In this document: positions 17,353 through 43,221 of the stretch, piece after piece | Layout of the letters: each line of letters opens with the position of its first letter | How positions within the stretch are numbered: the stretch's first letter is position 1 | Source: a virus | Length of the DNA: 64,000 nt | Virus record (IMG/VR): IMGVR_UViG_3300009155_000040 | Span: 1-64,000 of that record | Reading direction: 5' to 3' (one strand) | The notes under the pieces: model-generated | Database searches by the model: none | Seen by the model: the letters and a program-made list of their open reading frames with translations, nothing else | What the model was told of the DNA's origin: nothing | Position numbers and translations under genes: made by a program

Positions 17353-18213
17353 ATGAGTAAAATTAAAATTGCAGAGCTGTTTTACAGCATTCAAGGTGAA
17401 GGACGCTACATGGGCGTTCCGTCTGTGTTTCTACGCACATTTGGTTGTAACTTTAAATGTGCTGGCTTTGGTATGCCACGTGGTGAAGTAAGTCACGAAG
17501 CAACTGACATTGCGGCTACACATACTATGATTGAGTCTTTTCAAAAGTACGAAGAGTTGCCATTGGTTAGTACAGGCTGCGACAGCTATGCAAGTTGGAT
17601 GCCAGAGTTTAAAGACTTGAGTCCTATGCTGACAAGTGATGCTATTGCAGATCGTATTGCAGAGATTATTCCACACGGTGAGTGGAAGGATGAACACTTA
17701 GTTATTACAGGCGGTGAGCCTTTGCTAGGGTGGCAACGTGCTTATCCGGACTTGTTAGATCATCCTAAAATGGCAGGACTAAAAGAGATTACTTTTGAAA
17801 CTAACGGTACTCAAAAGCTATCACAAGAATTTAAAAATTATCTAACTGTGTGGAAAGGACTTCCACGTCAAAAAAGAGAAATTACATTTTCAGTAAGTGC
17901 TAAACTTCCTTGCAGTGGAGAGAAGTGGGATGAAGCTATTCTTCCAGAAGTAGTTTGCGAATACGAAGAAGTTGGCACAGCATATTTGAAGTTTGTTATT
18001 GCTACTGAACAAGATTTTGCTGACGCAGAGTGTGCAATTGCCGCTTATCGTACAGCAGGATTCAAAGGACACGTTTATCTAATGCCGGTGGGGGGCGTAG
18101 AAAGCGTTTACGCACTGAACAATAAAAATGTAGCATTGTTGGCAATGAAAAACGGTTTACGTTATAGCGATAGACTGCAAGTGCCGTTATTTAAAAATGA
18201 GTGGGGAACTTAA
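17353..18213 (+). CDS. queE: QueE, 7-carboxy-7-deazaguanine synthase with a split Cys motif
   Basis: 286 residues. QueE is a radical SAM enzyme that makes 7-carboxy-7-deazaguanine, the precursor of preQ0. The opening ELFYSIQGEGRYMGVPSVFLR is the QueE signature. The cluster Cys are C32 and C36 (GCNFKC) and C76 (GCDSYASW): the CX3CX2C motif is interrupted by about 36 extra residues before the third Cys, after which the usual CD(T/S) context resumes. TGGEPLLGWQ (119-128) is the SAM-binding GGE motif. The end (RLQVPLFKNEWGT) is typical. With FolE and DpdA in the same unit, it most likely feeds DNA base modification. Confidence 0.93.
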   Translation: MSKIKIAELFYSIQGEGRYMGVPSVFLRTFGCNFKCAGFGMPRGEVSHEATDIAATHTMIESFQKYEELPLVSTGCDSYASWMPEFKDLSPMLTSDAIADRIAEIIPHGEWKDEHLVITGGEPLLGWQRAYPDLLDHPKMAGLKEITFETNGTQKLSQEFKNYLTVWKGLPRQKREITFSVSAKLPCSGEKWDEAILPEVVCEYEEVGTAYLKFVIATEQDFADAECAIAAYRTAGFKGHVYLMPVGGVESVYALNNKNVALLAMKNGLRYSDRLQVPLFKNEWGT

Positions 18214-22238: not shown

Positions 22239-22536
22239 TTCGTTATTTAGGCCTCCACGTCATTTAGTTAAAGAGTGGCCAGAAGTGTTTGAAGATTTGT
22301 ATATGAATACCATGCCCGTGGCATATCTAGAGATGGTTCATCTAGAATTTGCCGACGGCAGGGTATGGCAAATCGATATTAAAAATCAGTTAGCCGAAGA
22401 AGCTGCTGAATTTATTGCAGACAAACTTTTGGAAACTTTTCAAGAGTACAAAGATGATATCAAAAAAATTGATTTTAAAATAGATGTAGAAAGATTAAAA
22501 AAAGATATCGCTACTTCAACAAAGGCTATTCTTTAA
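22231..22536 (+). CDS. Conserved late phage protein, unknown, last gene of the + strand unit
   Basis: 101 residues from ATG 22231, overlapping the previous stop by 8 bases; an upstream GTG is less likely. The core is VAYLEMVHLEFADGRVWQIDI followed by a long acidic helix. The stop codon lies in the loop of the terminator hairpin. It may work with the preceding gene, since both are coupled. Function unknown. Confidence 0.5.
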   Translation: MPNSLFRPPRHLVKEWPEVFEDLYMNTMPVAYLEMVHLEFADGRVWQIDIKNQLAEEAAEFIADKLLETFQEYKDDIKKIDFKIDVERLKKDIATSTKAIL

Positions 22537-22548
22537 TATAGCCTTTTT
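22521..22548. terminator. Bidirectional intrinsic terminator between convergent gene blocks
   Basis: AAAGGCTAT (22521-22529) pairs perfectly with ATAGCCTTT (22538-22546) around an 8-base loop. A T run follows on the + side; the - side has a weaker T-rich tail. Stop codons of both convergent genes are within the hairpin. Confidence 0.8.
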
Positions 22549-23395
22549 CTTTCATAAATTTAAAAATTTCTTCAGCCATTATTCTATAACCTTCTCTAGT
22601 AGGGTGCATACACGTTGTAATGTAATCTGTAGGTTCTTTTAATTTAGAATAATAGTCATAAAAAGCACCGTCGGCTAATTCTTCCCTACCGTCATATCGT
22701 AATAATAATTGCATAAAACTGTTGCACCCTTGAGGATATAAAAACTTATCCCACGGAATAGAATCTACTAATTCAGTATGCTCTTCTCCAATTTGCTGTA
22801 TAAAGTTTTCTCTAGTAATTCTTTGATCAAATGCACTGGCAACTATAAAATTCCATCCTTGGGCTTTGGCAAACATTGCTGCTTCGCGAATGTTTAATAG
22901 TGCTTCAAGGCAGACAAATTTTTCACTCCATATATCTCGAGAGTATGCTTCCCACAATTGTCGTTGTGTAGCATTTTTATCCCAAGGATTTGGCCACATG
23001 GCAAAAAAGTGATGATGTTCTTCGAATTGTCTATTAATAAAATCAAAACGCTCTATACCACTAAGCATTAAAACAAGAGTAGCTTCATTAGCTTTTTCCA
23101 TTTTAACTTTGGGGTTAATGTACAGCTCTTTTACACTTGCTCTATTTCCTTTACCAGATGCTCCAAAATTTACCGGAGTAAAGTTAGGAAGATGATTTTT
23201 ACAAATTTGAGATACCCAACTATATTCGTACATTTCAAATTCTAAATCTCTAGGAACCTTTAACGGATCAACAAATCCTCCGTATTGTTTATAAGTTTTT
23301 TTACTCCAGCTGCCTACTCCTTGAGTAAAGCTATCTCCTAATCCAATAATTAATTTTGAATTTTCATCTATTATAGGTATATGGATGTCATACAT
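22526..23395 (-). CDS. SGNH-hydrolase-like protein, last gene of the late - strand operon
   Basis: 289 residues. GLGDSFTQGVGSW (18-30) is a clear block I, NFGASGKGN resembles block II, and MHPTREGYRIMAEEI near the end is the His block. The Asp expected three residues before that His is Thr, so catalysis could be altered. Family members remove acetyl or acyl groups from glycans. Being in a glycosyltransferase operon, a sugar-editing role fits. It begins 2 bases after the previous gene's stop. It has no signal peptide. Confidence 0.7.
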   Translation of the reverse strand: MYDIHIPIIDENSKLIIGLGDSFTQGVGSWSKKTYKQYGGFVDPLKVPRDLEFEMYEYSWVSQICKNHLPNFTPVNFGASGKGNRASVKELYINPKVKMEKANEATLVLMLSGIERFDFINRQFEEHHHFFAMWPNPWDKNATQRQLWEAYSRDIWSEKFVCLEALLNIREAAMFAKAQGWNFIVASAFDQRITRENFIQQIGEEHTELVDSIPWDKFLYPQGCNSFMQLLLRYDGREELADGAFYDYYSKLKEPTDYITTCMHPTREGYRIMAEEIFKFMKEKGYIKE

Positions 23396-23397
23396 TT

Positions 23398-24654
23398 TTA
23401 TACTTTTCCTAATTTAAAATATTTGTTATACGCTTTTTCTAAACTGGCAAATGCAGGATTTATTTTTGTAGCATTCTTTTTTAGATTTTCATAATTGTGT
23501 TCTAAGATTGGTCGCATAGATTCAATCCAACTTGCTTTATCTTCAATTGCAATTATTTTTTTTATTGACTCAACTATTGCATCGTATCTTTCAAACGTTG
23601 ACAAGTTATCGTAACTTTCATCAATAAATCCATCAAACGTTTTATATCCCATGTCACGCAATTCTTTTAAACTGCCTTTGTTGCCTAAAATAATAAAAGG
23701 ATGAAAACACACAATCGGTTTGAAAACTTTTTCACTTAAGAATAATTGTTGATCAAAATCTGAAAAAGATGCTTCCGACACAACAGTGACCCACGAATCA
23801 AGACATACTTGATCCTGTATTCTTTGTATGTAATATCTATCGTCAAACTCGTTATTATTTTTTCCATGCACTATCAACGGTAACATAGAGTTTGCAACAT
23901 CTGCTCTTTCTTTTGGTAATATGCGATCTTCAAAATACACAGTATTGGTATTAAACGGATTCATACTTACTAGTCCGTGTTTTAATAATTGTTCTTCAAA
24001 CATTCTAATATAAAACCAAACTCTGTGCCCGCGAAGTCTTTTTTGTAGACAATTAAAATCTTTAATTTCGTTTATTTTTTTATATGATAAGTGTTTGTCG
24101 ACTGATGCTTCTAAAGCTGTCCAAACAGAATTATTATACACATCTGCTTCAAAATGCACATAGGGAATTGCAGTCATTCTATTTTCAATAGCATTATCCG
24201 TTGCCCATTGATCATATTGAATAGCACATAAAGAATTGCCGGTGGTGTAAATCACAGCCTCTGGGGGGATTTGATAATCAACACACTCTTTATGAAAAAA
24301 TTCCCATAACCATACTGCATGATATCCTTCCAAACATTGATCAAATAACAGCATTGCCTTTCCGTCACGAACATCATTAAGTTGTTTTTTACCGATATGA
24401 GAAAAGGCTGTTGCTTTGTTGTTTCCTATAGCTTTTGAATAACCTGTCCAATCGTTAGGACTATGATTAACACCAGTAGGTATAATGTACGGACGGGGTT
24501 TATTTTTCATAGAATACTGTCGTGCCATTTGAGTTCTATGTAATATAGTTATAGCCATTGGAGAAGGTGCAAATCGTCTAGACCCAGATAACACAACGTC
24601 CGGACATGCTGTATAATTTAAATAATTTTCTGAATCTTCAAATACAAAATTCAT
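23398..24654 (-). CDS. Putative glycosyltransferase-like protein
   Basis: 418 residues from the ATG at 24654, overlapping the upstream stop as ATGA; a start four codons earlier is possible. The C-terminal third has LFLSEKVFKPIVCFHPFIILG followed by LRDMGYKTFDGFIDESYD. That pattern is reminiscent of the donor-binding end of fucosyltransferase or exostosin-like GT-B enzymes (EK...PI...G). I know similar proteins in T4-like aquatic phages without tested activity. Neighbouring glycosyltransferases support the idea. The acceptor is unknown. Confidence 0.5.
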   Translation of the reverse strand: MNFVFEDSENYLNYTACPDVVLSGSRRFAPSPMAITILHRTQMARQYSMKNKPRPYIIPTGVNHSPNDWTGYSKAIGNNKATAFSHIGKKQLNDVRDGKAMLLFDQCLEGYHAVWLWEFFHKECVDYQIPPEAVIYTTGNSLCAIQYDQWATDNAIENRMTAIPYVHFEADVYNNSVWTALEASVDKHLSYKKINEIKDFNCLQKRLRGHRVWFYIRMFEEQLLKHGLVSMNPFNTNTVYFEDRILPKERADVANSMLPLIVHGKNNNEFDDRYYIQRIQDQVCLDSWVTVVSEASFSDFDQQLFLSEKVFKPIVCFHPFIILGNKGSLKELRDMGYKTFDGFIDESYDNLSTFERYDAIVESIKKIIAIEDKASWIESMRPILEHNYENLKKNATKINPAFASLEKAYNKYFKLGKV

Positions 24655-26015
24655 ACTGTTGCACACTCAAAATAGAATTCTTCCAATTCTGGAAAGGTTT
24701 TTACAAAATCTGTACCTCTTCTACGATCATATTCCGTGAACCAATTAAAGAAGTCGCGTTTGCCTTCTAACAGCTTCTCTGGGGTATAGATAGCTGATTC
24801 CATGTATTTCACGACTCTTTCAAATTTAGCATACTCTAAGTCGTTGAATTTACTACGGTTTTTATCGTCTAAATTGGCTAGAATGAAGTCTAGGTGCCGT
24901 TTCATATAAGGTATAAATTCATCTTTAGGCAAAATATTCATGTCGTACTGTAACGGTTCTTTTAAGTAGGGTGTATCAAATCGGATACGCTGCCATTTGT
25001 TTTGTTCAAATCCATTGTACTTAACACGCCACTCTAGAATTTTTTCTAACAAACTTTGGAAGTTAGTCACTGTAAGGATATTAAAGGTTATCATAAATGT
25101 AACCGGTAATTGAGTTTTTGTTAGATATGTATCTAAGTTACGCTCCCATACAGTTAAGTCCAATCCTGTACGAATGTATTCTGCCGGTGCTCCCCAAGTA
25201 TCCATACTGGTAAAAATTTTAAAATCTTTAATACAACTATTGGCAATCAAATTATTAACTTTTTCTACTAGCCTATCGATTAAAATCGGCTTGACTCCAA
25301 AATTTGAGTTGATGTTTAATTCAAGATTAGGCAACGGATTGATCAATAGATCATCTAATAGCTTCCATGTGCTAGATTGCAATAACGGCTCGCCACCAGT
25401 AATTCTTAGGATAGTTAAAGTCTTACTAACTTCCGGCCACCACTTCCACCACGCTATCACATAGGGATTAGTTTCTTCTTCGTAAATTTGAAACCAGTCA
25501 ATATCGTTGCGATGATTCTTAACCATAGTGTAAGGACCGTGATCTTTAATTTCTTTGTAATATGCACTGCTGTGTTTTGGATGACAATATCCGCATTTAA
25601 AATTACATTCATTACCAAAACTTACTTCGATGTACTGAGGATTGACAGGAGCTAGAGGATCGGCTTTAATAGCTCCTAATCGTTGTTCTGTAAAGATACT
25701 GGCATTGCGTTCATGTCTGTCGCTGATATAATCTTCGCCTAATGCTTCAATGTTCCAACAATAATTACATCCGGAAGGTTTTTCTCCTGCTATCATTTCA
25801 GCACGTTGACTGATCTTTTCTTTAGTGTTATGCAATGCACTAGGGTCTAGTGCAATTTCGTCTAAAGGAATTTTATGCGGGGCGGGATGATAACAACTGT
25901 GTGTTTCACCTGTACCTAAATAAATGGTTGTGTGATGCCATTTAGCAAGACAAAAGGTAGGAGAGATTTCATTCATTATAGGAATGAATTTCTTAATCCG
26001 GATCTTATCGTCCAT
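24651..26015 (-). CDS. Twitch-type radical SAM protein
   Basis: 454 residues. The radical SAM cluster motif is NECNFKCGYC (C137, C141, C144) and TGGEPLL (206-212) is the SAM-binding motif. Extra Cys at 22, 41, 83 and 86 (FCLAKW, SCYHP, GCNYCW) suggest auxiliary cluster binding as in twitch or SPASM enzymes. Such proteins modify peptides, sugars or cofactors by radical chemistry. Here it lies between glycosyltransferases, so a sugar or fibre-residue modification is possible. It overlaps the upstream glycosyltransferase by 11 bases. Confidence 0.85.
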   Translation of the reverse strand: MDDKIRIKKFIPIMNEISPTFCLAKWHHTTIYLGTGETHSCYHPAPHKIPLDEIALDPSALHNTKEKISQRAEMIAGEKPSGCNYCWNIEALGEDYISDRHERNASIFTEQRLGAIKADPLAPVNPQYIEVSFGNECNFKCGYCHPKHSSAYYKEIKDHGPYTMVKNHRNDIDWFQIYEEETNPYVIAWWKWWPEVSKTLTILRITGGEPLLQSSTWKLLDDLLINPLPNLELNINSNFGVKPILIDRLVEKVNNLIANSCIKDFKIFTSMDTWGAPAEYIRTGLDLTVWERNLDTYLTKTQLPVTFMITFNILTVTNFQSLLEKILEWRVKYNGFEQNKWQRIRFDTPYLKEPLQYDMNILPKDEFIPYMKRHLDFILANLDDKNRSKFNDLEYAKFERVVKYMESAIYTPEKLLEGKRDFFNWFTEYDRRRGTDFVKTFPELEEFYFECATV

Positions 26016-26703
26016 TTAGTTTATCCTTTGACAGTTCATATTGTTCTTTTAACCAATCAAAATCATTTATCTTTATTAACTCACTTGGCGCATTTTGCCA
26101 GAACAGACCAAAATATTTTCCTGCAATTGCCCCCATATAAGCATGAGAGCCATATGGGACTGCATCGTTTAGTGTACACCATGCTTCTAATCGCTGTGTT
26201 GTCTCTAGGTCATCTTGGCGGTCAATGGTTTTACTTGCCAACTTGCAACATTCTCTGAAAGCTGATTTCCATGTATTGAACGAATCTGTATTGAATGCAG
26301 TAATGTTGCTGACTTCCGGCATTGCTTTAAACAAAGAACTAATACTTGTTGTCATGTCTGGAGTAGAGACATCCATATTTTGTGTTAGTCGTTTAGGCAG
26401 CAACTTAACTCCACCGTATCCGTATTCTAAATCATTGATAGGATTACGACTGCGCCAAACATGCACACACTCCAAATCGTATTTGCTAACTTCGTAATCA
26501 AAATTAAATGTATCAAGTATTTCTGCATCAGCATCTACTACCCAAAACATTTTTGTAAATGCTTTTTTTGCTGCGGCAATATGTGCTTGGTGTATTCCTT
26601 TAATTCCATGCACTCTGTGTGCGTAAGGAAACCTTGCCTTTAACTTAGCAAAGTTAGCATCTGCATTTGGTTCGTTATAACTGATAAAAATAATATCGTA
26701 CAT
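26005..26703 (-). CDS. GT-A-like glycosyltransferase, copy 1 of a tandem pair
   Basis: 232 residues. The opening YDIIFISYNEPNAD and WVVDADAEI (D57/D59 region) fit a GT-A nucleotide-sugar domain with a DxD metal motif. It is clearly related to the gene just upstream: shared FISY(N/D)EPNAD, RVHG(I/V)KG, AHKAA-type helix, VDAD, and YG(Y/N)GG(V/I)K. It ends within the radical SAM gene start. Substrate unknown. A processing or sensing role cannot be excluded. Confidence 0.65.
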   Translation of the reverse strand: MYDIIFISYNEPNADANFAKLKARFPYAHRVHGIKGIHQAHIAAAKKAFTKMFWVVDADAEILDTFNFDYEVSKYDLECVHVWRSRNPINDLEYGYGGVKLLPKRLTQNMDVSTPDMTTSISSLFKAMPEVSNITAFNTDSFNTWKSAFRECCKLASKTIDRQDDLETTQRLEAWCTLNDAVPYGSHAYMGAIAGKYFGLFWQNAPSELIKINDFDWLKEQYELSKDKLNGR

Positions 26704-27584
26704 TATTGCCTAAAATAAGTTAATCCGAGATCTATTGTTTCATTATAAAGATCTAAAACATATTTGCTCTGCTGGGCATCAAGGTTGGGCCAATCTAACC
26801 CTAAATTAAGTTTAATTTTTTCTCCAAGGTCCTGTATGTCTTTTTCAAGACATCCATGCAAAACATTTTCTTGGTATATATTTTTAAGAATTTCAAAATC
26901 TCTAACTTGGACATAATCCCAATCTGTACAGTTAGTCATCCATGTACCAAGCCTTGCACCATGTATTGCATATAATCCGTTTTCCTCATGGGCTCCTACA
27001 GTACTCCACATACGCAACCTATGGATATTATGCCACCATATATGATCCTGTAATTCCATTGCTGGAACTTTAATTCCGTCCTTCAATGTCATCTTAACAC
27101 CTTCACGGAATCCTGCTCGCCATGCTTGGAACGGCGAACCTGTGATAATGCTTTCACTGTAGACTACTGGGAAATTTCGATAACCGTCTTCCCAACAGAA
27201 ATCTACCTGTGCCCTATCGCTTGTACTGGCTTCATGGGTTTGCATATTGAGAATAAACTCTTTTTTCCAAATTTTAATTCCGCCGTTACCGTAACGTAAA
27301 CCATTAATTTTATTTCTACCACACCAACCATAAACTTGTATCTTTGGATCACTCATATCTAGATCTAAATCAAAAAATTTAGGATCTACAATATTATCTG
27401 CATCAACAGTTATAAGCCAATCGGTATCACTCAAGTTGGCTGCGGCTTTGTGTGCATGGTCGCTGCCCTTAACACCGTGTACTCGTTTTGCCCACGGAGC
27501 TTTATCGCATAAGTCGGCATAATGTATATCAGCATTTGGTTCATCGTAACTGATAAAAATAATATCAAATTCTACTATTTTCAT
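26703..27584 (-). CDS. GT-A-like glycosyltransferase, copy 2 of a tandem pair
   Basis: 293 residues. DIIFISYDEPNAD (7-19), RVHGVKG (34-40) and ITVDADNIVDP (58-68) mark the GT-A domain and DxD motif. It carries an extra C-terminal 60-residue helical part absent from its neighbour copy. The two genes share a single base. Divergence between copies suggests different donors or acceptors. No signal peptide or membrane helix, so it works in the cytoplasm. Confidence 0.65.
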   Translation of the reverse strand: MKIVEFDIIFISYDEPNADIHYADLCDKAPWAKRVHGVKGSDHAHKAAANLSDTDWLITVDADNIVDPKFFDLDLDMSDPKIQVYGWCGRNKINGLRYGNGGIKIWKKEFILNMQTHEASTSDRAQVDFCWEDGYRNFPVVYSESIITGSPFQAWRAGFREGVKMTLKDGIKVPAMELQDHIWWHNIHRLRMWSTVGAHEENGLYAIHGARLGTWMTNCTDWDYVQVRDFEILKNIYQENVLHGCLEKDIQDLGEKIKLNLGLDWPNLDAQQSKYVLDLYNETIDLGLTYFRQ

Positions 27585-28204
27585 TTAATCTCCAATACAT
27601 AATTTTTAAACAATCGTCTTGTATACACACTAAATTTAATAGGTAAATCTAAATTTTTAAGTACAAATTTCTTTCCTACAAGATCTGATATTTTTATAGA
27701 AAACGGTTTGTACAATACATTAGGATCATTGTAATCTGTAATTAAAAAATTCATATCAGTATTACCGGCCCAATTGATTTTTTTCTTTTTAACTGGTTGG
27801 AATTTCTTAGGAAGTTTTTTAGTTCCACCGTATTCTTCAGTTAATTCTAGTGTCAACGAGTTTGCTTTATAAGTTAAAAATACATTTGGTTTATCAAATT
27901 CTGCATGTTGCACTTCAACAATGCGATGTAACACATCGTCTATTTTATATAAAGCTCTAGTTTCGGATATAACATAACTGTCGCCTGTGATGTCCACCGA
28001 ACAAGAATTAAGATTAATTTTACCTTCAATGATCATTTCAGCAACTTCTTGATCCATTGGAATTTTATGTTCTTCATTTAAAAATGCAGACTTTGGACCA
28101 ACTGCTGTTATTGCGCCTGATGTCGGATTAAACACAGCAAAGAATTCTACCGGAGGTAAAATAATAGGTTCGAATAACATATCAAAATCAATTATTTCTT
28201 CCAT
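27581..28204 (-). CDS. Phage protein of unknown function in the glycosyltransferase operon
   Basis: 207 residues, beta-rich, with VEFFAVFNPTSGAITAVGP near the start and NWAGNTDMNFLITDYND then KNLDLPIKFSVYTRRLF near the end. It has no catalytic motif I recognise. It overlaps its neighbours by 4 and 13 bases, so it is made together with the glycosyltransferases. It could be a carbohydrate-binding or acceptor protein; that is inference. Confidence 0.5.
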   Translation of the reverse strand: MEEIIDFDMLFEPIILPPVEFFAVFNPTSGAITAVGPKSAFLNEEHKIPMDQEVAEMIIEGKINLNSCSVDITGDSYVISETRALYKIDDVLHRIVEVQHAEFDKPNVFLTYKANSLTLELTEEYGGTKKLPKKFQPVKKKKINWAGNTDMNFLITDYNDPNVLYKPFSIKISDLVGKKFVLKNLDLPIKFSVYTRRLFKNYVLEIK

Positions 28205-29031
28205 GCTATTTCCTCTAAAATATTAATTACTTCTTGTGTAATTTTATCTTTTTCTACATAATGAACAATATTATGTTGTTGATAGTTTCCTATTTTTACC
28301 TGTCCTTTGCGATTTACATAAAATCCCAAATGATCGCTCCATACATCTGACGGCCAAGGAAAGTTTTGTATCATGCCTTTCATGTGTACTACTTTAGGAA
28401 AATCTAAATCATATGCGATATCATCAGCAATATCTAAAATTTTTGCTGCTAGGGCAAAGGCTTCGTCAGTGCCAACAACTTTTGGTTTAAGTTCTGTTAA
28501 AAATAAATTTGAAAATTCTACAGGATTTTCAATAATACTGCGAGCCAATGTAAAAAACTCTTTGGCTACAGCACTGTCTTTTTTAAAAAATGTATAGAAA
28601 CTATAAAGATTAGGTAATTTATTTTTTGTAAATGTCCTACGATAATAGTCACTGTCTACTAATTCTTCTCTATAGGTATATGCATTATTGGCAATATACA
28701 ATTCATTATTTTCTACAAAATAATCAATCCAATGACTGTAGTCTCTAGTAAACAACATGTCAGAATCTAAACAAACTGTATAATCAAAAGGACTGTATGT
28801 GTCCATCCATGATCTAGCATCCCAACCTTTATACTTTTCAATTTTTTCTACATGATCAAACACCCAAGAAGATTTTAATTTCTTTACTGCATCGACATCG
28901 TCTGTCATTAGACATACTTTGTCATATCCTTCTTTTTGAGTATTCTTAATACTAAGTGCTAATGCATAAGCTAGATTGAGATAATCTATATTGTCATTAG
29001 TAGAAACAAAAATTAAATATCCAAAGTTCAT
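28192..29031 (-). CDS. GT-A-like glycosyltransferase (GT8-like layout), copy A
   Basis: 279 residues. YLIFVSTNDNIDYLNLAYALALSIK at the N-terminus and CLDSDMLF (D89, D91) resemble GT8-type enzymes with a DxD metal site. A later HMKG and W-rich segment fit the nucleotide-sugar pocket region. It is related to the next gene upstream (similar N-terminus, DSD motif and overall order). Overlap with neighbours: 4 and 13 bases. Confidence 0.65.
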   Translation of the reverse strand: MNFGYLIFVSTNDNIDYLNLAYALALSIKNTQKEGYDKVCLMTDDVDAVKKLKSSWVFDHVEKIEKYKGWDARSWMDTYSPFDYTVCLDSDMLFTRDYSHWIDYFVENNELYIANNAYTYREELVDSDYYRRTFTKNKLPNLYSFYTFFKKDSAVAKEFFTLARSIIENPVEFSNLFLTELKPKVVGTDEAFALAAKILDIADDIAYDLDFPKVVHMKGMIQNFPWPSDVWSDHLGFYVNRKGQVKIGNYQQHNIVHYVEKDKITQEVINILEEIAWKK

Positions 29032-29891
29032 GCTAACTCCATTAGTTTTTCTGAGTGGCGAATAATACTTTGTTTGTTCATCACATGGATATCAAGTCCT
29101 CTTACAGCAGCGGCATAATAATTGTTGTCGCTGTGTGGACTTGCTAATATTATTAGTTTTCCTGTAGCGTCTACCGAATGTAAAACATCTTTATCTAATA
29201 CTGTTAAAATAGGAGGAAGACTTTCGTTGGTGGTTGTTTCAAACCCATCTAATATATGTTTTGCCACACTAAAAGAAATGTCATTTCTATACTGTGTTGT
29301 GTCGAATCGAAATAGGTCAGCATAATATTGATAGTTTTGTCTAATAACGTTGACCAGTTCAAAAAACATTTTGCTGTAGGGTGTTTTTTTAAACATCACA
29401 GTTGTTGCCCAATATAAATGGACCCCTGTATCGGATACATATTTGTCATGATATCCTAATCTTTTTTGATCGTAGATGTCTAGCATATTTTTAGCAATCA
29501 TAACATCTGCATCAACGTCCCAATACGAACTCAATCTATTGGAAAAAATTAAAAAATCACTGTCCATTAACAGTGTTTGATCATACGGTGTTAACTCGTA
29601 CACATTAGCACGGTTGGCATTGACAAATGGAATATTTTTAAAATGTACACCGTCGTGCAAGCGTCTCATATTGTCTGTTATTGGACGATCAACTTCTATA
29701 ATTTTATCGAATGTTGAAACTAGTTGTTCATAGTTGTTTGATATTTTAGCCCATTCTAATGTAGAGGGGTCTGTAACTAATGACACCGGTATACCTAAAT
29801 TCTTTTTAGCCAAGCGAGCAGCTAACATTGCCATGTATGCATAGTCAATGTCTCTATTGTTGTGTGCAAATATTAATGCGCCGCGTGTCAT
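29028..29891 (-). CDS. GT-A-like glycosyltransferase (GT8-like layout), copy B
   Basis: 287 residues. It opens GALIFAHNNRDIDYAYMAMLAARLAK, and LLMDSDFLIF (D110, D112) is the DxD site. It has the same domain order as copy A but low identity. It overlaps copy A and the upstream small gene by 4 bases each. Substrate unknown. Confidence 0.65.
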   Translation of the reverse strand: MTRGALIFAHNNRDIDYAYMAMLAARLAKKNLGIPVSLVTDPSTLEWAKISNNYEQLVSTFDKIIEVDRPITDNMRRLHDGVHFKNIPFVNANRANVYELTPYDQTLLMDSDFLIFSNRLSSYWDVDADVMIAKNMLDIYDQKRLGYHDKYVSDTGVHLYWATTVMFKKTPYSKMFFELVNVIRQNYQYYADLFRFDTTQYRNDISFSVAKHILDGFETTTNESLPPILTVLDKDVLHSVDATGKLIILASPHSDNNYYAAAVRGLDIHVMNKQSIIRHSEKLMELA

Positions 29892-30238
29892 ATGTCTAAT
29901 AATTTTTCCACACTGCGGCTTTTTTTAAGTTCTTGAAATTCTTGATAGTACTCTAATGTAGTATCATAATATCTGTCAAATATATCATCTCTAAATTTTT
30001 CTAAATCTTCAATCATGATTGGATTTTCGTTGGAATCAATTAAGGGAACATTTTCTGTTCTTCCCTGATCAATAAACATCTGTACAAATGTTATTAACGA
30101 TTTGTCAATCTTAAAGATGCCGCCGTTTTGACCAATGGTTAATTTGGCTTCAATTTTTTCTTTGAGAAGGCGTCTTTGGATTGAAAAGGTCTGACGATAG
30201 TTTGAAAACTCTAGAGCTTTTTTGAGTTGCTCTTCCAT
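29888..30238 (-). CDS. Conserved phage protein, first gene of the glycosyltransferase operon
   Basis: 116 residues, largely helical, with MEEQLKKALEFSNYRQTF at the start, KIEAKLTIGQNGGIFKIDKSLITFV in the middle and LKKSRSVEKLL at the end. I associate this type with T4-like aquatic phages, near fibre genes. A late-promoter-like motif lies upstream in the 57-base gap, with a GGGG-containing binding site. Function unknown; a fibre or assembly accessory is possible. Confidence 0.5.
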   Translation of the reverse strand: MEEQLKKALEFSNYRQTFSIQRRLLKEKIEAKLTIGQNGGIFKIDKSLITFVQMFIDQGRTENVPLIDSNENPIMIEDLEKFRDDIFDRYYDTTLEYYQEFQELKKSRSVEKLLDI

Positions 30239-30265: not shown

Positions 30266-30273
30266 TATTTATT
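30266..30273 (-). promoter_or_regulatory. Late-promoter-like motif AATAAATA before the glycosyltransferase operon
   Basis: The reverse complement reads AATAAATA, one mismatch from TATAAATA, about 28 bases before the ATG at 30238 in the only sizeable gap of this region. It is placed to express the nine-gene operon late. Confidence 0.5.
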
Positions 30274-30295: not shown

Positions 30296-33019
30296 TTATG
30301 TGGTTGGTGCAGTGGTAATTTGTATTGTTGGTGTTGTTACTTGGAAATTGCCTGACCCACCTGGCAATAGTGTACCAGTGGCTTCAAGCGTTGACAATGA
30401 AATACTTAATGTTCCGTCAACACCTTCTGTTGCGCCGCCGATGCCTGTGTGATTATCTGTCCACTCAACTTGGAATTCGATGCTGGATGCGGTTCCTGCA
30501 GAGTTATCCGAAATGCCTGGAGTTCTAGCATAAATTTTATAGGTGTTTGTTGAATATGGATTTGATGATGTAGCAGTATACCATGCATTAAATCCGTTGC
30601 TTAATCTATAAAAATTACCGCCATTCAAACTTCCAGTTTCAGCAATTGGTTTGTTTCCGCCAAATGCTTGTGTGCCGATTCCCGTTAAGAATGTTGTCCA
30701 ATTTGCATTTTGAGCAGCAATTGCGCCTGTAGTTGATCCACCGGCCCTTGCTGATAAAAATCTTATTTCACCGCCACTATTGAAGAACGCTCGGGCTTGG
30801 GCAGCAGTTGGCCAGTATACACTGATTAAACTGTATACTCTAGTGGTCCAAGTTGAGCCAAGTGCACCTGGCCACGCTGTTTCAGAATACCAAGATCCTA
30901 ATCCCACAGGAGCAGTCCTAGTAATGGCCTGTGTAGCAGAAATGTCAAATTTTTGTGTAACCAACACATCGGCCCAAGTAGCATATTGTTTATAAGGTGC
31001 AGTTGCAGTATGAGCTCTTACAGTTTCTCCTACAGATGCATTGACCAATGTTGGTGTAGTTCCAACCTGATGTATATAGGCATTGATAATGTCATATTTT
31101 AACGTAGTCCAATCAGTTACTGAAACTCGATTGCTGGTTGTTATTTGATTACTGAAAACTGTTTGTCCGTAACCGCTATTTCCAGAACCTACACCTAATA
31201 CACCAGCTACTTTAGCTTGGATATCGTTGTAGTCTGCAACCTGAATAGTTTTAGAAACCCATATACCCGAAGCTACGCCCGTACCTTGAGAAGCGGTACC
31301 TAAGTCGGTGCCAAGTGTTAATGATGTTGCTGGCATCACTGTGCCGGTGCCGGTGCCTGGACCAGTTGCTGTAAATGTTAATCCTGTTGTGGCTGTAAAT
31401 GTTTCTGGAATAGCACGTCCTGTTCCAGGGCTAGTTGTTATAACTGTTGCTACTGTGATTGTCATACCCACAGTATATGTTATTCCCGACGTGCCGGCAA
31501 TGTTATTCCATTGAGTATTTGTTGTCGAACCTATTACTTTAATTGTATAGACTTCACCGATTTGGAATGCAGCAACATCTACCCATCCTGCACCAACTGC
31601 TGTATAGTCTGTGGTTCCCAAAGTTACTACGGTATATTTTTGAGCTGCTACCATTGCTGTTGCATTGATAAATCCAGATCCTGTGGCAGTGAATGTTACA
31701 CCAACGGTATTTGACGATGCACCAAATTTTGTAAAATCAGTGTTGCCAGCAAATGTAATAGTGTAAGATCTACCACTGACAAAATTACCAGCGGTTACTA
31801 AACCTGTGGCGGTGGCTGTGAATACTGTACCTGCAGTATTATTAGCGGAACCAAGATCTGTCCATATTGTTGTGCCTGCGGTAATAATAGTATAAGAACG
31901 GCCTATTACTAAGGCACCCGGATAATCAGCTGTGTTAGCCACAGCATTTTGATATAGGTCACCAATTTTAAATGATGTAAAACCTAAACCGTTGTTTAAG
32001 CTGAGAAGGGCAATTTCTTCACCTTCTGTAATACCGCTATCTGCGGCAATGGTTATTGTGGTACTGGCCATTCCACTAAGACCGCCATCTGTACTAGATA
32101 CTGTAAATGACCCAGTTAAAGTTGCAGGATTAAAATCAGTGCCGGTAATGCCTGCACCGGAAATTGTGTAAGGCAACACTGTACCATTTGGCACATTACG
32201 TGTATACATGTATACAATTATGGAGTTACCGTCAGACACTCCAGGAAGATTAGTCTTAAAAGAAAATTCAGCTTCGTCATAGGTAAGGATGATAATACCT
32301 TGCGACCCAGCTCCGCCAGCTGTAAATCCGCGAGATACATATGACGCTCCAGGGTTTGGTGTTCCGCCGGTAGCTGTCCTTTCTGTAGATACTCCTTGAG
32401 ATGCACCGCCACCTCCGCCTGAACCCGTGAAGCCCTGTCCGTCGGCACCGGTTAACCCTTCGCCGCCGCCGGCGCCGCCACCGCTTGCACCCCTGGTGCC
32501 ACCTGCTATTGGTCTTGCGGTTGTTTGATCAAATACTCCGCAGCCGCCGCCGCCGCCGCCACCATAAAGGGTTCCTTTATACAGATATCCTGCTGCGCCT
32601 GCACCTCCAATAATCCCATTTTCAGGTAGTCCGTTATTAGCAGGACTAGGGCCGCCGCCTCTCGCACCTGCACCTTGAGACGTAACGGTAAGCACACCAT
32701 CAATAGTTCTAGAGGATCGGTTACTGCCCAATGCCCCTCCACCGAGCGCACTTAGTGCTCCAAACGTAGTAGTAAAACCGGTACCGTTTGGTGCCACGCT
32801 GGCTCCGACGGCATACGATATTGATGTGCCAGGACTAACTATTATATTCCTTGTAAGGAGGATACTGCCGCCGGCGCCGCCGTAACCGCCACCGTTCACG
32901 TTTCCTTGTCCAGCAGCACCGCCACCAACAAGAAACACCTCACTAAGTAAAAAACAGTTAGCAGGGGGGGTCCATGTTGTGGGTGATGTACTGGTTAGTG
33001 TGACTGTTTGTACGGCCAT
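30296..33019 (-). CDS. Glycine-rich tail fibre protein with internal repeats
   Basis: 907 residues. Residues 1-245 form a Gly-rich domain (many GGG and GGAGG turns) as in phage adhesin tips. Residues about 250-345 resemble a Calx-beta-type strand domain (ITEGEEIALLSL). Residues about 365-560 hold degenerate repeats of the form GRSYTI..GTT..T..GA..NTVG..FTATG. The last 320 residues are related to the next protein upstream (30S-style match: ADYNDI, GYGQTVF, ARAFFNSGG, NWTTFL). Probably a receptor-binding fibre. A perfect late promoter core precedes it. Confidence 0.75.
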   Translation of the reverse strand: MAVQTVTLTSTSPTTWTPPANCFLLSEVFLVGGGAAGQGNVNGGGYGGAGGSILLTRNIIVSPGTSISYAVGASVAPNGTGFTTTFGALSALGGGALGSNRSSRTIDGVLTVTSQGAGARGGGPSPANNGLPENGIIGGAGAAGYLYKGTLYGGGGGGGCGVFDQTTARPIAGGTRGASGGGAGGGEGLTGADGQGFTGSGGGGGASQGVSTERTATGGTPNPGASYVSRGFTAGGAGSQGIIILTYDEAEFSFKTNLPGVSDGNSIIVYMYTRNVPNGTVLPYTISGAGITGTDFNPATLTGSFTVSSTDGGLSGMASTTITIAADSGITEGEEIALLSLNNGLGFTSFKIGDLYQNAVANTADYPGALVIGRSYTIITAGTTIWTDLGSANNTAGTVFTATATGLVTAGNFVSGRSYTITFAGNTDFTKFGASSNTVGVTFTATGSGFINATAMVAAQKYTVVTLGTTDYTAVGAGWVDVAAFQIGEVYTIKVIGSTTNTQWNNIAGTSGITYTVGMTITVATVITTSPGTGRAIPETFTATTGLTFTATGPGTGTGTVMPATSLTLGTDLGTASQGTGVASGIWVSKTIQVADYNDIQAKVAGVLGVGSGNSGYGQTVFSNQITTSNRVSVTDWTTLKYDIINAYIHQVGTTPTLVNASVGETVRAHTATAPYKQYATWADVLVTQKFDISATQAITRTAPVGLGSWYSETAWPGALGSTWTTRVYSLISVYWPTAAQARAFFNSGGEIRFLSARAGGSTTGAIAAQNANWTTFLTGIGTQAFGGNKPIAETGSLNGGNFYRLSNGFNAWYTATSSNPYSTNTYKIYARTPGISDNSAGTASSIEFQVEWTDNHTGIGGATEGVDGTLSISLSTLEATGTLLPGGSGNFQVTTPTIQITTAPTT
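31340..31915 (-). repeat. Degenerate protein repeats in the Gly-rich fibre
   Basis: About four to five copies of a 35-45 residue unit with YTI(V)..GTT(N)..T..GA...TVG..FTATG(A). The copies differ in sequence, so this is an old protein repeat rather than a recent DNA duplication. Boundaries are approximate. Confidence 0.6.
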
Positions 33020-33056: not shown

Positions 33057-33977
33057 TCAAGTCGCAGTTATTGACGATATTGAATACGTTGGGCTTGTGA
33101 TAGTAAATGTTCCAGTAGGCACTAACAATCCTGCTGCTTTTAGTTCGTCCACAGCCACTGCCAATGTGCCGTCTATTACATCTCCCGGTGGAAAGATTGT
33201 AGGAGGGTTTGGATACCCAGGATTTAGCGTATCTGGATCAACATAAGCATCATTCCAAATTACCTTGATGTAAACAACTGTGGCTGTTCCGCCCACATTG
33301 TTTGCCACATTAGTTTTGGCCTGCAATTGATAATTGTTAGACGAGTAAGAGCTGGTTGCACCCTGTTGATAAAATGTTTGATAAACATTGGTTAACGAAT
33401 AAAATGTTGCACCGCCGGGTGTGTTTGCACCAAGTCCCTGTGATCCAATAGTATCTAACAAACTTGTCCAAGATGAATTTTGTGGAGTTGTTGCTCCGCC
33501 GGTTCTCGTACTGGAAATTCTAATTTTTCCGCCACTGTTAAAAAAGTATCTTGCTTGATTTGCTGAACCAAAAGTAACAGTAATCTCACATGATGATTGC
33601 GATGCCCATGATCCTGTTCTTGATGTTCCGGGTTTAGCAGTAATTACTGACTGGTCAACACCAATATTAAATCTATTTAGACTGGCTGCGTCAGCAGCAA
33701 TATCAAATCCGTTGTTAGGAAATGTTATTCCTTGTTGAATAACAGATAGTGGTTCCACTTCTGCAAGAGCAGGTTCTCCGCCATCTTGATGTATTTTGAT
33801 ACTGCGAAGCATGTTGCGCAAATCGTCCCATTGAACTTTGGAAATTTGCTCGCCTTGCGATACTGTGGCTCCTAATACTGTTTGTCCATACCCCTTTGAG
33901 CCCGTGCCTGTCCCAAGAATGTCAACAATCTTGGCGCGGATATTATTGTAATCGGATGATGATATTTGAGTAGGCAT
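33057..33977 (-). CDS. Fibre protein, paralogue of the C-terminal part of the Gly-rich fibre
   Basis: 306 residues. The segments SDYNNIRAKI, GYGQTVLG, ARYFFNSGGKIRISS, SSWTSLLDTIGSQ and a C-terminal DGTLAVAVDELKAAG block line up in order with the last 320 residues of the Gly-rich fibre (DYNDIQAKV, GYGQTVFS, ARAFFNSGGEIRFLS, NWTTFLTGIGTQ, DGTLSISLSTLEATG). It lacks the Gly-rich head. Duplication and fusion of one module best explain this. It likely forms part of a distal fibre. It begins one base after the upstream fibre's stop. Confidence 0.7.
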   Translation of the reverse strand: MPTQISSSDYNNIRAKIVDILGTGTGSKGYGQTVLGATVSQGEQISKVQWDDLRNMLRSIKIHQDGGEPALAEVEPLSVIQQGITFPNNGFDIAADAASLNRFNIGVDQSVITAKPGTSRTGSWASQSSCEITVTFGSANQARYFFNSGGKIRISSTRTGGATTPQNSSWTSLLDTIGSQGLGANTPGGATFYSLTNVYQTFYQQGATSSYSSNNYQLQAKTNVANNVGGTATVVYIKVIWNDAYVDPDTLNPGYPNPPTIFPPGDVIDGTLAVAVDELKAAGLLVPTGTFTITSPTYSISSITAT

Positions 33978-33978: not shown

Positions 33979-35796
33979 TTATAACACTAGTGCTTCAATT
34001 GTTGTTATTCCGTCAACATCACTAGACTCAAGTGCAATTGCAAATGTATCTACGTTGAAATTTTGTCTTACTAGCGCAGTACCAGCTGGGCCTGCTACCA
34101 GTCTATCGCCTTTCTTAACAGCACCTGTTACTTTAACAGGAACTCGTCCTTTAAGGGCAATGTATGTACCGCCTACTAGATCTTTATTCATCATAAACGC
34201 TGGATTTGCACTAACTACACCAATAGCTCTGTCGCCTTGTGTGCAGGCAGTAACTTCTTTAGTACCTCCAACTGCAACCACTGTGCCTGTTTCGTAGTCG
34301 GCGTCTGCCAGATATTTTTCTGCCAAGTCAGCATATTGAGCTGATGTAGCTGTTCCGTCAAATACGTTGGCTAACAAATTACCTGCGGCATTTCTAGCAG
34401 CAATTGTAAATGCTGTTTTTGTTGTTCTAGCTGATCTGTACCAAGTGCTTTGATCGCTGCCGTTCCAAGTGGTATCAGTGGCTGCATCATCAATTTTTAA
34501 TTTGTTTGTACTTGTGGCAATGCCGTTGAATTTTACAGCATTTAATTCACCTAATGAGTTTCTTACTGCTATCGAATCGGCGGTTGCTGTAACTTCACCA
34601 GATAGTGAATTTAATTCTAACGCATTTGATGCTGTTCCGTTAACATCTCCTTGAACAGAACCAAATAAGTTTCCTCTAAGAGTTGCACCAGTGTAACCAA
34701 TTTGTTTAGTAGTACCATTAATCAATACAGTGGCATCAGTTGCTAGGACATTTCCTACAAATGCTCCAGTAAATTGTTTGGTAGAATAATCATATGCAGT
34801 TGTAAGGTCAGACGCTTTAAGATTTGCCACTACGCCGTCAGCATAAACAGATCCCCATTTAAGCGTTGGCGATCCTAAATTATAACCTTCATCTATTCCT
34901 GGTACTATTCCTGTACCCGTAAACACAGCAACGTTTTGTTTAACAGTGCCATTGGTAATTCTAACAGTAATATCATTGTTATTTTTATTTTCAATAATAA
35001 CATCTTCACTGTTTTCAATCCAAATACGAAGATCAGTATCAGTACCTACATAAAAACCTACATCTGGAAAAGTAATTGCTGAAGTAAACGGATTTGCAAT
35101 ACCAACTCGAACATAGTCAGATGCTAATCTTCCACCTAACCTGTCTGAATTACTTGCTGTTCCCCAGAATCTATAATCGCTAGTGGTCTGTCCATTACTC
35201 GGAGTATTAATTAATGTAATACCCTGTTTAATAACTGGAAAGTTTGCTGTCAATCCTGTTGAACTTGCTGGAATAAACTCTTCAAGGGCGTTGACAATTG
35301 CTACAATCTCTCCGCCTGCAATAATTTTAATAATGGCATGTGTATCAGCAACCGGCGATTGATTATCTTTAATTGTATCAGTAGCAATAGCACTAGATCC
35401 AAGTTCAGGACTTGCAGCTGGTCCAACTAGAACATACTGTGTTCCGGACCACGTGTATAATTGTTTAGCGTTTGAATCCCACCAAAACTCACCAGTAGCC
35501 AAGCCTGCGGGCTGAGTAATGCTGACTTCAGCGCCATTGGCAACTTTAAATTTAACACCATCGTAGAATTTTAGCTTTTTATTTCCGCTATCATACCATA
35601 TTTGCCCTGGAACCACTTTTGGGGGTGCTGAAGTGTTTGCAAAATTTTCCATTAAATGTAGGAAATTTTCGTTTTGTACTTCGCCGTAGCCTGCGTAGTT
35701 TTTACCTACAAATCGTAGATCAGTGCTGGAATCGATTGTTCCGTCTGCTACAGTTGTTTGTAGTACTCCGTTAAATTTGTTTACTTGATATGCCAT
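33979..35796 (-). CDS. Tail fibre protein with shared N-terminal module, paralogue 1
   Basis: 605 residues. The first 180 residues are a module shared with three neighbours: DGTIDSSTDLRFVGKNYAGYGE, NENFLHLMENFAN, GQIWYDS and KLKFYDG, then VLVGP. The middle has beta-rich strand repeats. The last 130 residues (YLADADYETGTVVAVGG, VTACTQGDRAIGVVS, GGTYIALKGRVPVKV) form a separate terminal domain typical of phage fibres. A late-promoter-like motif and AAGGTGGATC precede the ATG. Confidence 0.75.
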   Translation of the reverse strand: MAYQVNKFNGVLQTTVADGTIDSSTDLRFVGKNYAGYGEVQNENFLHLMENFANTSAPPKVVPGQIWYDSGNKKLKFYDGVKFKVANGAEVSITQPAGLATGEFWWDSNAKQLYTWSGTQYVLVGPAASPELGSSAIATDTIKDNQSPVADTHAIIKIIAGGEIVAIVNALEEFIPASSTGLTANFPVIKQGITLINTPSNGQTTSDYRFWGTASNSDRLGGRLASDYVRVGIANPFTSAITFPDVGFYVGTDTDLRIWIENSEDVIIENKNNNDITVRITNGTVKQNVAVFTGTGIVPGIDEGYNLGSPTLKWGSVYADGVVANLKASDLTTAYDYSTKQFTGAFVGNVLATDATVLINGTTKQIGYTGATLRGNLFGSVQGDVNGTASNALELNSLSGEVTATADSIAVRNSLGELNAVKFNGIATSTNKLKIDDAATDTTWNGSDQSTWYRSARTTKTAFTIAARNAAGNLLANVFDGTATSAQYADLAEKYLADADYETGTVVAVGGTKEVTACTQGDRAIGVVSANPAFMMNKDLVGGTYIALKGRVPVKVTGAVKKGDRLVAGPAGTALVRQNFNVDTFAIALESSDVDGITTIEALVL

Positions 35797-35818
35797 GTTT
35801 GATCCACCTTAATCTTTG

Positions 35819-35826
35819 TATTTATT
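35819..35826 (-). promoter_or_regulatory. Late-promoter-like motif AATAAATA
   Basis: The reverse complement reads AATAAATA (one mismatch from the core), 23 bases before the ATG at 35796, within the gap to the upstream gene. Confidence 0.5.
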
Positions 35827-35828
35827 CA

Positions 35829-36185
35829 TTATATAATACGAGTTGCAGCCGCTTGTCTTTGAGTTTCTAAATCTAAATATTGCTGTTGCGTTAAACTCGT
35901 TGGAATCGACAATGCTTGCTGTCTAATATGACGCAAAACTTTCCAATCTGTGCTTCTTAAAAATTCTAAATCGCTTGCATTTCTTAATTGATTTTCTTTC
36001 TGTGTTAAAATTTCAACGCCTACTGGTTGAACAGTTTTAGTAGGAATATCAAAATAGTGAGTTTGTGCTATTATGGAGTTATGATCAGCATCACTAATCT
36101 CCGATACTGACACAGTATTAGGAACGGACGGTGCATAACTTAATATGCTGATTACTTTATTATCTTCTATACATACGTAGTGCAT
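35829..36185 (-). CDS. Tail-fibre-assembly-like small protein
   Basis: 118 residues from the ATG at 36185, with GGAG upstream; a longer frame that starts inside the fibre gene is not needed. The C-terminal part, with LEFLRSTDWKVLRHIRQQ, is typical of caudoviral tail fibre assembly chaperones. The N-terminal half is a strand-rich cap (HYVCIEDNKVISI). It begins 3 bases after the stop of the upstream fibre, the usual place for a chaperone acting on that fibre. The fit is by motif only. Confidence 0.65.
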   Translation of the reverse strand: MHYVCIEDNKVISILSYAPSVPNTVSVSEISDADHNSIIAQTHYFDIPTKTVQPVGVEILTQKENQLRNASDLEFLRSTDWKVLRHIRQQALSIPTSLTQQQYLDLETQRQAAATRII

Positions 36186-36187
36186 TT

Positions 36188-38473
36188 TTAACTCCAAATT
36201 GCCATGTAATTGGCGGCCGGTGTAGATCGTTGTTCTGTATTTTGAACATATACTCGAATCCTGTCTCCAAGATCGCTCCAGGTACAACGTAGTGAGTCGT
36301 TACCATCAACTCCGCCGGCATAGTGTATAACTGCTATACTAGGCATAAATGCAATTAAATTAGCCATTGTTTTGCCTGAGGGCGGAAACACATCAAAAAA
36401 GTTTGCGCCATTATTCCAACTGCCTACTTGATTTGTGTAACCCGAAGTACTGTAAACTGTATTACCGTAGGTAAATGTATACTGTGGTAATCTACTGTCA
36501 ACATACTGTTTAGGAGTGGCATGTAAATCAGATATCGGATTGCCGTTCAGTGTTAGGTATCCAGACATTGTGCTACCGGAAATGGCTACTTTTGTTGGAT
36601 CGGTTGCACTAATTGATATATTAGTTGTGCCGTCAAACGACACACCATTAATAGTTCTAGCTGTTTGTAATCTCGATGCCGAGGTTGCATTTCCAGTTAC
36701 TGCTCCAACTAACGAAGCTGTAATTGTTCCTGCTGAAAAATTACCACTAGAATCACGTGCAACTACTTTACTTGCAGTATTAGCAGATGTAGCATCTACA
36801 GAAATTGTTAATGGTAACTGAGTATCGTAGTAACTCGGTGAACCAGTGCCTGAATAAGAAATATAAGTGCCAGCAGTTAATTTTTCTAACGCCATTGCAC
36901 CCCATGTTATAGAGTTGCCGCCGGTTGATTTAAGAACATAGCCAGGGGTGCCGGCTGGTAAAAATGCCGTTGTTCCAGATGCCGTTTGATAAGGTACAGA
37001 ACCGGCACTGCCGCCGGCGATGTTTGTAGATCTAGTTGCTAATGTTGCTGTTTCTGCATTGCCAACTAGAGTATTTGCATATATTTTATCCCATTTATTG
37101 TTTGAAGTTCCCAAATTAATTGGATCTCCAGCATGTATAAAATTAGGTGCAAAAGCTGGCTGGTTAATTCCGCTGCTGCTTAAAGATTGCGCAGATGTAA
37201 TAAAACCAATATCGGCGAAGTCTCCAGTAACAGCAGTATCAAATATTTTTAATAAAAATCCGGTTTGCTGATTTGCTGATAATGTTGGTGTACCACCTTG
37301 CACTCCAAGTGTAAGTTCTTCGGCTCCACCAACTGTTACTCCAAGGTCTGCAACATTTAAAGAATTAAGTGTTCCAACGTCAGTTAAAGACGAATTTAAA
37401 ACACTAGGACTTAATATGTCCCCAGTCAATGTTTCTGCGGCGGCTGGAATACTAATGTCAGCAGTTCCATCAAAATTAACATTATTGATTTTTCTAGGTG
37501 TTGTTAATTTAGTTGCTGTAGCAGCATTACCGCTAAGTGTTGCTCCAATAAATGTATTGGCTTGAACTACGTCAAAGGTGCTGGTTCCACTTGATGCTGT
37601 TACATTTCCAAGTAAGGTAGCAGTAATTGCGCCTGCTGAAAATCCGCCTGTGCTATTTCTTGCTACTACTTTTCCTGCTTGATTTGCAGACGATGCATCA
37701 ACAGCCCATGTAACTTCTGTTGACCCATTAAAATCAGTTCCAGTTAGATATGTTCCACGTTTCAACCTGTTGGTAGTATTTGATAAAACTGTTACATCCG
37801 ATGTTCCATCGAACACTGTACCGTTAATCAATCTTGGTGTTATCAGTCGTGTTGCAGTTGCCGCATTACCTGTTAGATTTCCTTTAACTACTGTTGATGA
37901 ATTTAATGTCAGGCCGGCTGCTAAGTTACTAAATCCAACAAGTCCATATGAAGGATTAATTGTAAATGCTGTGGCTGAAATAATGCCGATTATGCCGCCG
38001 TCGATTGTTAATTTTATAACTGGTCTACTGACATTGTCGCCATCTAATAAAGTAGTCGATACTGCTCGGGTGATTCCGAACCCTTCGGCAGTTTCTGGTC
38101 CGATGAATCGCCAATTGTTATCAGCCCATACATGCAATGTATTAAACGGAGATTTTAACCACAAAGCACCATTTGATGGCTCTTCCGGTGGGTCATTTGA
38201 TATTACAGCCGAGCCAACAATGGTCCATTTTGAGCCGTCATATACGTGTAAAATATTACTTAAAGTATTAAACCAAGTTTGACCTTGTAAAGGCCTTGCA
38301 GGAGGAAATTCATTTGCAAAATTTTCTAACATCCATACAAAGTTTTCGTTTTGTGTTTCACCATATCCAACATAGTTTCTTCCAACCAAGCCAATGCTGG
38401 TAGAAGTATCTATTGTACCGTCTTCTAAAACGACTAACGGTTCATTGTTAAATTTATTAATTGTATATGGCAT
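36188..38473 (-). CDS. Tail fibre protein with shared N-terminal module, paralogue 2
   Basis: 761 residues. The shared module reads DGTIDTSTSIGLVGRNYVGYGE, NENFVWMLENFAN and GQTWFNT. The central region repeats a pattern with GNATSA(T)RL, RTINGVSFDGT and VVARNSTGGFSAGTIT, at least three times. The last 110 residues are a distinct domain with YGNTVYSTSGYTNQVGSWNNG, perhaps receptor binding. TAGGAG precedes the ATG. The following gene is the assembly-like protein, which may serve this fibre. Confidence 0.78.
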   Translation of the reverse strand: MPYTINKFNNEPLVVLEDGTIDTSTSIGLVGRNYVGYGETQNENFVWMLENFANEFPPARPLQGQTWFNTLSNILHVYDGSKWTIVGSAVISNDPPEEPSNGALWLKSPFNTLHVWADNNWRFIGPETAEGFGITRAVSTTLLDGDNVSRPVIKLTIDGGIIGIISATAFTINPSYGLVGFSNLAAGLTLNSSTVVKGNLTGNAATATRLITPRLINGTVFDGTSDVTVLSNTTNRLKRGTYLTGTDFNGSTEVTWAVDASSANQAGKVVARNSTGGFSAGAITATLLGNVTASSGTSTFDVVQANTFIGATLSGNAATATKLTTPRKINNVNFDGTADISIPAAAETLTGDILSPSVLNSSLTDVGTLNSLNVADLGVTVGGAEELTLGVQGGTPTLSANQQTGFLLKIFDTAVTGDFADIGFITSAQSLSSSGINQPAFAPNFIHAGDPINLGTSNNKWDKIYANTLVGNAETATLATRSTNIAGGSAGSVPYQTASGTTAFLPAGTPGYVLKSTGGNSITWGAMALEKLTAGTYISYSGTGSPSYYDTQLPLTISVDATSANTASKVVARDSSGNFSAGTITASLVGAVTGNATSASRLQTARTINGVSFDGTTNISISATDPTKVAISGSTMSGYLTLNGNPISDLHATPKQYVDSRLPQYTFTYGNTVYSTSGYTNQVGSWNNGANFFDVFPPSGKTMANLIAFMPSIAVIHYAGGVDGNDSLRCTWSDLGDRIRVYVQNTEQRSTPAANYMAIWS

Positions 38474-38494
38474 TTGAGCCGCTCCTAAATTTCA

Positions 38495-40387: not shown

Positions 40388-40410
40388 GTTCTTATCCTAA
40401 ACGCCTTATA

Positions 40411-43213: not shown

Positions 43214-43221
43214 TATTTATT
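43214..43221 (-). promoter_or_regulatory. Late-promoter-like motif AATAAATA at the end of the giant gene
   Basis: The reverse complement reads GAATAAATAC, one mismatch from the core, and contains the stop codon of the giant gene (GAA TAA). It is placed 26 bases before the ATG at 43187 and may start the fibre transcript. Confidence 0.45.

Follow-up and report, generated by a model that had tools for sequence, protein, structure and literature searches.

The operon described here consists of nine ORFs on the minus strand at positions 22526-30238 of the window, by which we mean the whole stretch of DNA that was analyzed, the first 64 kb of the 139,071-base IMG/VR virus record IMGVR_UViG_3300009155_000040. 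Portal, major head, terminase, and baseplate wedge families mark the genome as T4-related, and the major capsid proteins of Sinorhizobium phage Phosso, Vibrio phage 2.275, and Pseudomonas phages MIJ3 and PA5oct share 66-71% identity with its own. All nine genes, which the initial annotation had described as overlapping or touching in one direction, were recovered in place, with overlaps of 1-16 nt and a single gap at the last junction. The first gene, g116 (29888-30238), overlaps the transferase candidate g287 (29028-29891) by 4 nt (29888-29891). A second transferase candidate, g279 (28192-29031), shares 4 nt with g287 (29028-29031) and 13 nt with g207 (27581-28204; overlap 28192-28204), and g207 shares 4 nt (27581-27584) with g293 (26703-27584), a transferase candidate with a GT-A-like fold. 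Its paralogue g232 (26005-26703) overlaps g293 by 1 nt (26703) and the gene for a twitch-domain radical SAM enzyme (24651-26015) by 11 nt (26005-26015). The overlap of the radical SAM gene with the gene for a putative 422-aa enzyme (23398-24666) spans 16 nt (24651-24666) with the GTG start, or 4 nt with the in-frame ATG at 24654, the probable start. After a 2-nt gap, the operon closes with a gene for an SGNH/GDSL-like protein (22526-23395), and its downstream end faces a convergent plus-strand gene, with a hairpin that is a possible terminator at this point (22521-22546, no strand assigned).

Upstream of the operon, also on the minus strand, lie fib907 (30296-33019), the last virion-type gene before g116, which matches Pfam Gly_rich_2 and joins a Gly-rich N-terminus to a fib306-like part, and fib306 itself (33057-33977), a homologue of PA5oct gp360. 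Beyond these, positions 33979-42543 encode four fibre-type proteins with a common N-terminal domain of ~80-90 residues that is also present in PA5oct gp358 and gp359. A 152-aa ORF (35829-36287), 50-59% conserved in relatives, sits between fib605 and fib761 and overlaps the latter by 100 nt. Further on, positions 43217-57130 encode a 4637-aa protein related to gp355, the giant structural protein of the PA5oct virion (~30% identity in pieces). The late-promoter-like motif previously placed at 30266 is indeed present: recognized by sequence and spacing, AATAAATA runs on the minus strand from 30273 to 30266, 34 nt ahead of the g116 start. Within the window, TATAAATA as such is not enriched (2 found vs 7.3 expected). 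A TAAATA core occurs within 60 nt upstream of g116 in 32 out of 32 close relatives and 48 out of 52 further relatives, compared with 1.6-3.3% of random 60-nt stretches; because the relatives share ancestry, these counts measure conservation and are not independent hits.

We found that all four transferase candidates carry a DxD motif that is invariant in alignments of their relatives (D110-x-D112 in g287, D89-x-D91 in g279, and D61-x-D63 in g293), a motif common to many GT-A families. Specifically, g287 and g279 are homologous to each other (hhalign 96.6%, E 6e-10), and g293 and g232 form a second family that is not detectably related to them. None of the four matched a named glycosyltransferase family in Pfam, NCBIfam, or PHROGs, g287 and g279 had no match among PDB profiles, and PDB profile searches of the operon proteins in general gave nothing useful. 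The GT8 label that had been attached to two of the enzymes is therefore not confirmed for g287 and g279, despite the invariant DxD. For g293, a structure model (pLDDT 86, pTM 0.85) has mostly GT-A enzymes as its nearest PDB entries, which supports a GT-A fold but, with a TM-score of at most 0.40, does not prove it. The best match of the g293 model is an enzyme of PBCV-1 capsid glycosylation (PDB 2p6w and 2p72, E 1e-4), which works in the cytoplasm of the host on a protein of the virus particle. The likeness lies in this being the top fold match and in its action on a virus particle protein; the difference is that the TM-scores to g293 are 0.24-0.40, that there is no useful sequence identity, and that PBCV-1 is an algal virus.

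The twitch-type assignment of the radical SAM protein proved well founded. It scores 319 bits against NF033640 (N_Twi_rSAM) over residues 18-448, well above the curated cut-off of 170, and C137, C141, and C144 (CX3CX2C) as well as C22, C41, C83, and C86 are invariant in 17 sequences. The small conserved protein that had been noted at the head of the operon is g116, with 116 aa and 53-74% identity within the clade of the window. Neither g116 nor g207 nor the 422-aa protein belongs to a named family in Pfam, PHROGs, or NCBIfam, so the 'GT-like' description of the 422-aa protein was not confirmed. A lone PHROG hint at a terminase for g116 (E 0.026) was dismissed as weak. g207 looks non-enzymatic, gave a poor fold model, and matched only uncharacterized phage proteins; profile comparison gave no support for g207 as a tail-fibre assembly chaperone of the Phage_tail_APC or Caudo_TAP type, chaperones that sit between the fibres of relatives lacking the module. 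In the SGNH-like protein, S22 and H264 are invariant in 24 relatives, the match to Pfam Lipase_GDSL lies below the cut-off (19.7 bits, E 0.001; cut-off 23.6), and the block III Asn is absent, so that the label is a tentative one.

Phage glycosyltransferases often act on DNA, and a function of the operon in glycosylating hypermodified DNA bases was therefore weighed; we regard it as very improbable. The window does contain GTP cyclohydrolase and QueE-like genes (12226-12990 and 17353-18213), possibly a 7-deazaguanine pathway, perhaps for DNA modification. However, these genes sit in the plus-strand replication half, outside the operon, which follows virion genes and has a late-type motif of its own, and none of the nine proteins belongs to a DNA-binding or base-modifying family in Pfam, PHROGs, or NCBIfam.

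When viral contigs were scanned with the radical SAM protein, 500 relatives were confirmed and the top 80 retained, which placed this locus in a wider setting. Where the contigs reach, the genes run in the order fib907/fib306-type, g116, g287, g279, g207, g293, g232-type, and radical SAM, followed by a segment that differs between relatives and then by conserved convergent genes. The operon is thus a fixed core with a variable cassette site behind it, and since the 422-aa and SGNH-like genes lie in the variable segment, they are members of the cassette site and not of the core. A search for synteny of the gene set yielded 192 environmental loci that carry the four markers g116, g287, g279, and g293, without a single violation of order and with overlapping junctions; the safer count is the 155 distinct g279 sequences among them, because some contigs were fetched more than once. 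Synteny in so many relatives excludes chance as the source of the arrangement. The nine-gene combination is real in the window, but it is one instance of a core and cassette arrangement that is widespread in relatives. Relatives of fib306 lie directly before g116 in 220 junctions. In a scan with fib306, the complete ordered core was present in 47 out of 47 loci with at least 6.5 kb downstream among the best 80 kept, a sample that is tilted to relatives of the window because the query alignment consisted mostly of module-bearing loci and only the best 80 were retained. In these 47 loci, g116 starts 51-63 nt past the last virion-type ORF. A radical SAM gene scoring above 200 bits was found in 44 of the 47 and an orthologue-like one in only 21, which marks the transferases as the more constant part. 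The g232-type paralogue is usually, not always, present, being often diverged or exchanged and missing in one clade, that of L093. Labelled Rhodobacteraceae, this contig is apparently of phage origin and misbinned; it has fibre genes along with the core, at 26-57% identity. With its radical SAM protein as query, we retrieved 80 further viral contigs of up to 364 kb, most of them with the same core order. Among nine relatives in bacterial genome contigs, L093 has the core, and the other eight have the radical SAM gene as the sole core gene. These eight (L086-L092 and L094; 36-57% identity) come from Bdellovibrionota-type and other proteobacterial MAG contigs, and in L086 the gene adjoins a GT2 transferase gene. 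Some relatives have small ORFs, next to g293 or between it and the radical SAM gene, that by eye resemble HNH endonucleases (IHHIDGN..N.PSNL; L124 7386-7904; L129 7327-7920; L130 5775-6443 and 7391-7906).

The cassette segment measures ~2-8 kb (about 2.1-8.3 kb in loci showing both flanks). The 422-aa enzyme family is its commonest occupant, and it also holds several SGNH-like families, NAD-dependent epimerases, the UDP-glucose/GDP-mannose dehydrogenase family, 2OG-Fe oxygenases, and more radical SAM enzymes. These contents bear on two other explanations of the operon. The main one is that it alters the host surface glycan (lipopolysaccharide or capsule) late in infection, for example to block binding of released or competing phages to infected cells or debris, and that it lies near the fibres because both form one host-recognition region. 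Surface polysaccharide pathways typically include epimerases and a UDP-sugar dehydrogenase, the cassette differs between relatives, and this is the published reading for the fibre-region glycosyltransferases of pelagimyophages (PMC7029224). Nevertheless, we judge this explanation unlikely, as the order and position of the core are fixed across deep divergence, unlike the nonsyntenic island of pelagimyophages, and late expression leaves little time for a change of the envelope. Moreover, none of the nine operon proteins has a membrane segment above KD 1.6, and nothing among them hints at a flippase or membrane transferase, whereas Gtr-type O-antigen conversion combines a membrane flippase with a membrane-bound transferase. 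It is important to point out that peripheral lipopolysaccharide transferases can likewise be without membrane segments.

Less probable still is that the radical SAM enzyme and the transferases make a glycosylated peptide-type product or small molecule unrelated to the particle. SPASM/twitch enzymes often modify peptides, many relatives carry tandem twitch/SPASM arrays behind the core (up to ~5 further radical SAM genes after the first one in L097-L151), and two peptide S-glycosyltransferases are among the weaker fold matches of g293. Set against this are the fixed attachment of the core to virion genes, the presence of sugar-nucleotide genes at the cassette site, and the fact that no precursor peptide was noticed in a non-systematic inspection.

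In addition, we observed that isolates, as well as some related jumbo phages, lack the module. The radical SAM, g287, 422-aa, g293, and g116 proteins, and also a distant g293, had no match in 50,697 phage records. The cultured jumbo phage PA5oct, whose major capsid protein is 66% identical to that of the window, shares the block made up of the giant virion protein, s220, the fibres, and a fib306 homologue; the last is gp360, which is annotated as detected by ESI-MS/MS. Unlike in the window, no transferase or radical SAM module is present at that site, and the convergent genes directly follow the fib306 homologue. Scanning with s220 brought up jumbo relatives from metagenomes that lack the module close to their fibres (L256, L257, L259, and L309), and g279 had no match in the whole records of L256, L257, and L309, which may be fragments. 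In L309, two of the convergent genes known from the window have homologues next to the fibres, so the site is seen both with and without the module.

Taken as a whole, a core that recurs in ~190 environmental fragments and is unseen in phage records suggests that these phages sugar their own particles, and we give a probability of roughly 0.55 to the reading that the operon glycosylates virion appendages in the infected cell. Several observations point this way: the core directly follows a virion-type ORF in all 47 fib306-selected loci with at least 6.5 kb downstream, the complete loci keep their order with overlapping junctions, the fib306 homologue gp360 is annotated as MS-detected in PA5oct, the promoter-like motif is conserved, the DxD is invariant with a g293 fold nearest to GT-A enzymes and first to the PBCV-1 capsid enzyme, the nine proteins show no flippase or membrane transferase, and the cassette site is rich in nucleotide-sugar genes. 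Pairwise distances of g116, g287, g279, and g207 correlate with each other (r 0.89-0.94) and less with those of g293, g232, the radical SAM gene, and fib306, which indicates that these four genes, g207 included, are inherited as a unit and adds to the argument. Counting against virion glycosylation, the divergence of the core shows no special coupling to that of fib306 (r 0.61-0.66), and thus no sign of tuning to fibre alleles, PA5oct keeps a fib306 homologue without the module, the sugar-nucleotide genes would suit O-antigen work as well, and the g293 fold match is weak. The presumed acceptor is only a little richer in Ser/Thr than gp360 (0.25 vs 0.22), too small an enrichment over the module-negative homologue to count. 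The initial annotation had favoured a late role on surface glycans over one on DNA; the conserved motif, the fixed attachment to a virion-type gene, and the lack of membrane segments fit this, and decoration of the virion itself is carried here at the probability given.

We propose the following mechanism, for which we infer the acceptor, the donors, the order of the reactions, the roles of g116, g207, and the radical SAM enzyme, and the benefit to the phage. The late operon would build a glycan and attach it to the phage's own tail appendages in the host cytoplasm, with the fixed core performing the common steps of assembly. Here, g287/g279 and g293/g232 would be two transferase families that add sugars from nucleotide-sugar donors, g116 and g207 may present fibre or fib306/fib907-type proteins as adaptors or chaperones, and the radical SAM enzyme might use radical chemistry to remodel a sugar or a residue of the fibre. 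The cassette, in the window the 422-aa enzyme and the SGNH-like protein, could finish the glycan, for example by adding or removing an acyl group, and as it is swapped between phages, the outer part of the glycan would differ. More tentatively, at below even odds, the operon may be dedicated to virion glycosylation, of old origin, and present in nearly all members of a large T4-related lineage without cultured representatives; its twitch radical SAM enzyme would help make the glycan or its protein anchor, and its exchange site would diversify the outer sugars.

The earlier statement that no described system has this combination was too strong, as related gene sets occur in pelagimyophages (PMC7029224) and moraphages (PMC12619734). 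Pelagimyophages, T4-related aquatic phages, resemble our case in that their tail-fibre region contains glycosyltransferases and radical SAM gene cassettes, interpreted there as modifying the host O-chain (PMC7029224). However, their island is nonsyntenic and lies between vrlC and gp14, whereas the core described here is syntenic and lies, as read from its flanks, between the last virion-type (fib306/fib907) gene and the convergent genes, and its searched proteins are without match in isolate phages. The moraphages, aquatic jumbo phages, likewise have several glycosyltransferase families in their core genome, four in number and with an open role for which virion glycosylation is mentioned as an option; this likeness is one of description, not of sequence comparison, and the text names no radical SAM enzyme (PMC12619734). 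In mycobacteriophages, according to Freeman 2023 as cited in PMC12619734, glycans occur on capsid and tail tube subunits. Going by that citation, phage-linked glycans on particle proteins are the kind of outcome proposed here, with the difference that we propose fibres as the target and have in addition a radical SAM enzyme and an exchange site. We found no description of the operon in open-licence PubMed Central texts, and as far as could be found, the fixed operon, its attachment to virion genes, its breadth, the cassette site, and the radical SAM partner are new. Cultured relatives without the module (PA5oct type) provide a natural comparison. Should our reading hold, a fixed machinery that sugar-coats the tail appendages, with a coat whose end is hypervariable, would be carried by many aquatic phages not yet in culture, some of them on contigs of more than 360 kb, numerous transferases would be available for a test of the acceptor, the prediction of host recognition from fibre sequence would change, and the N_Twi_rSAM family of radical SAM enzymes would gain a role.
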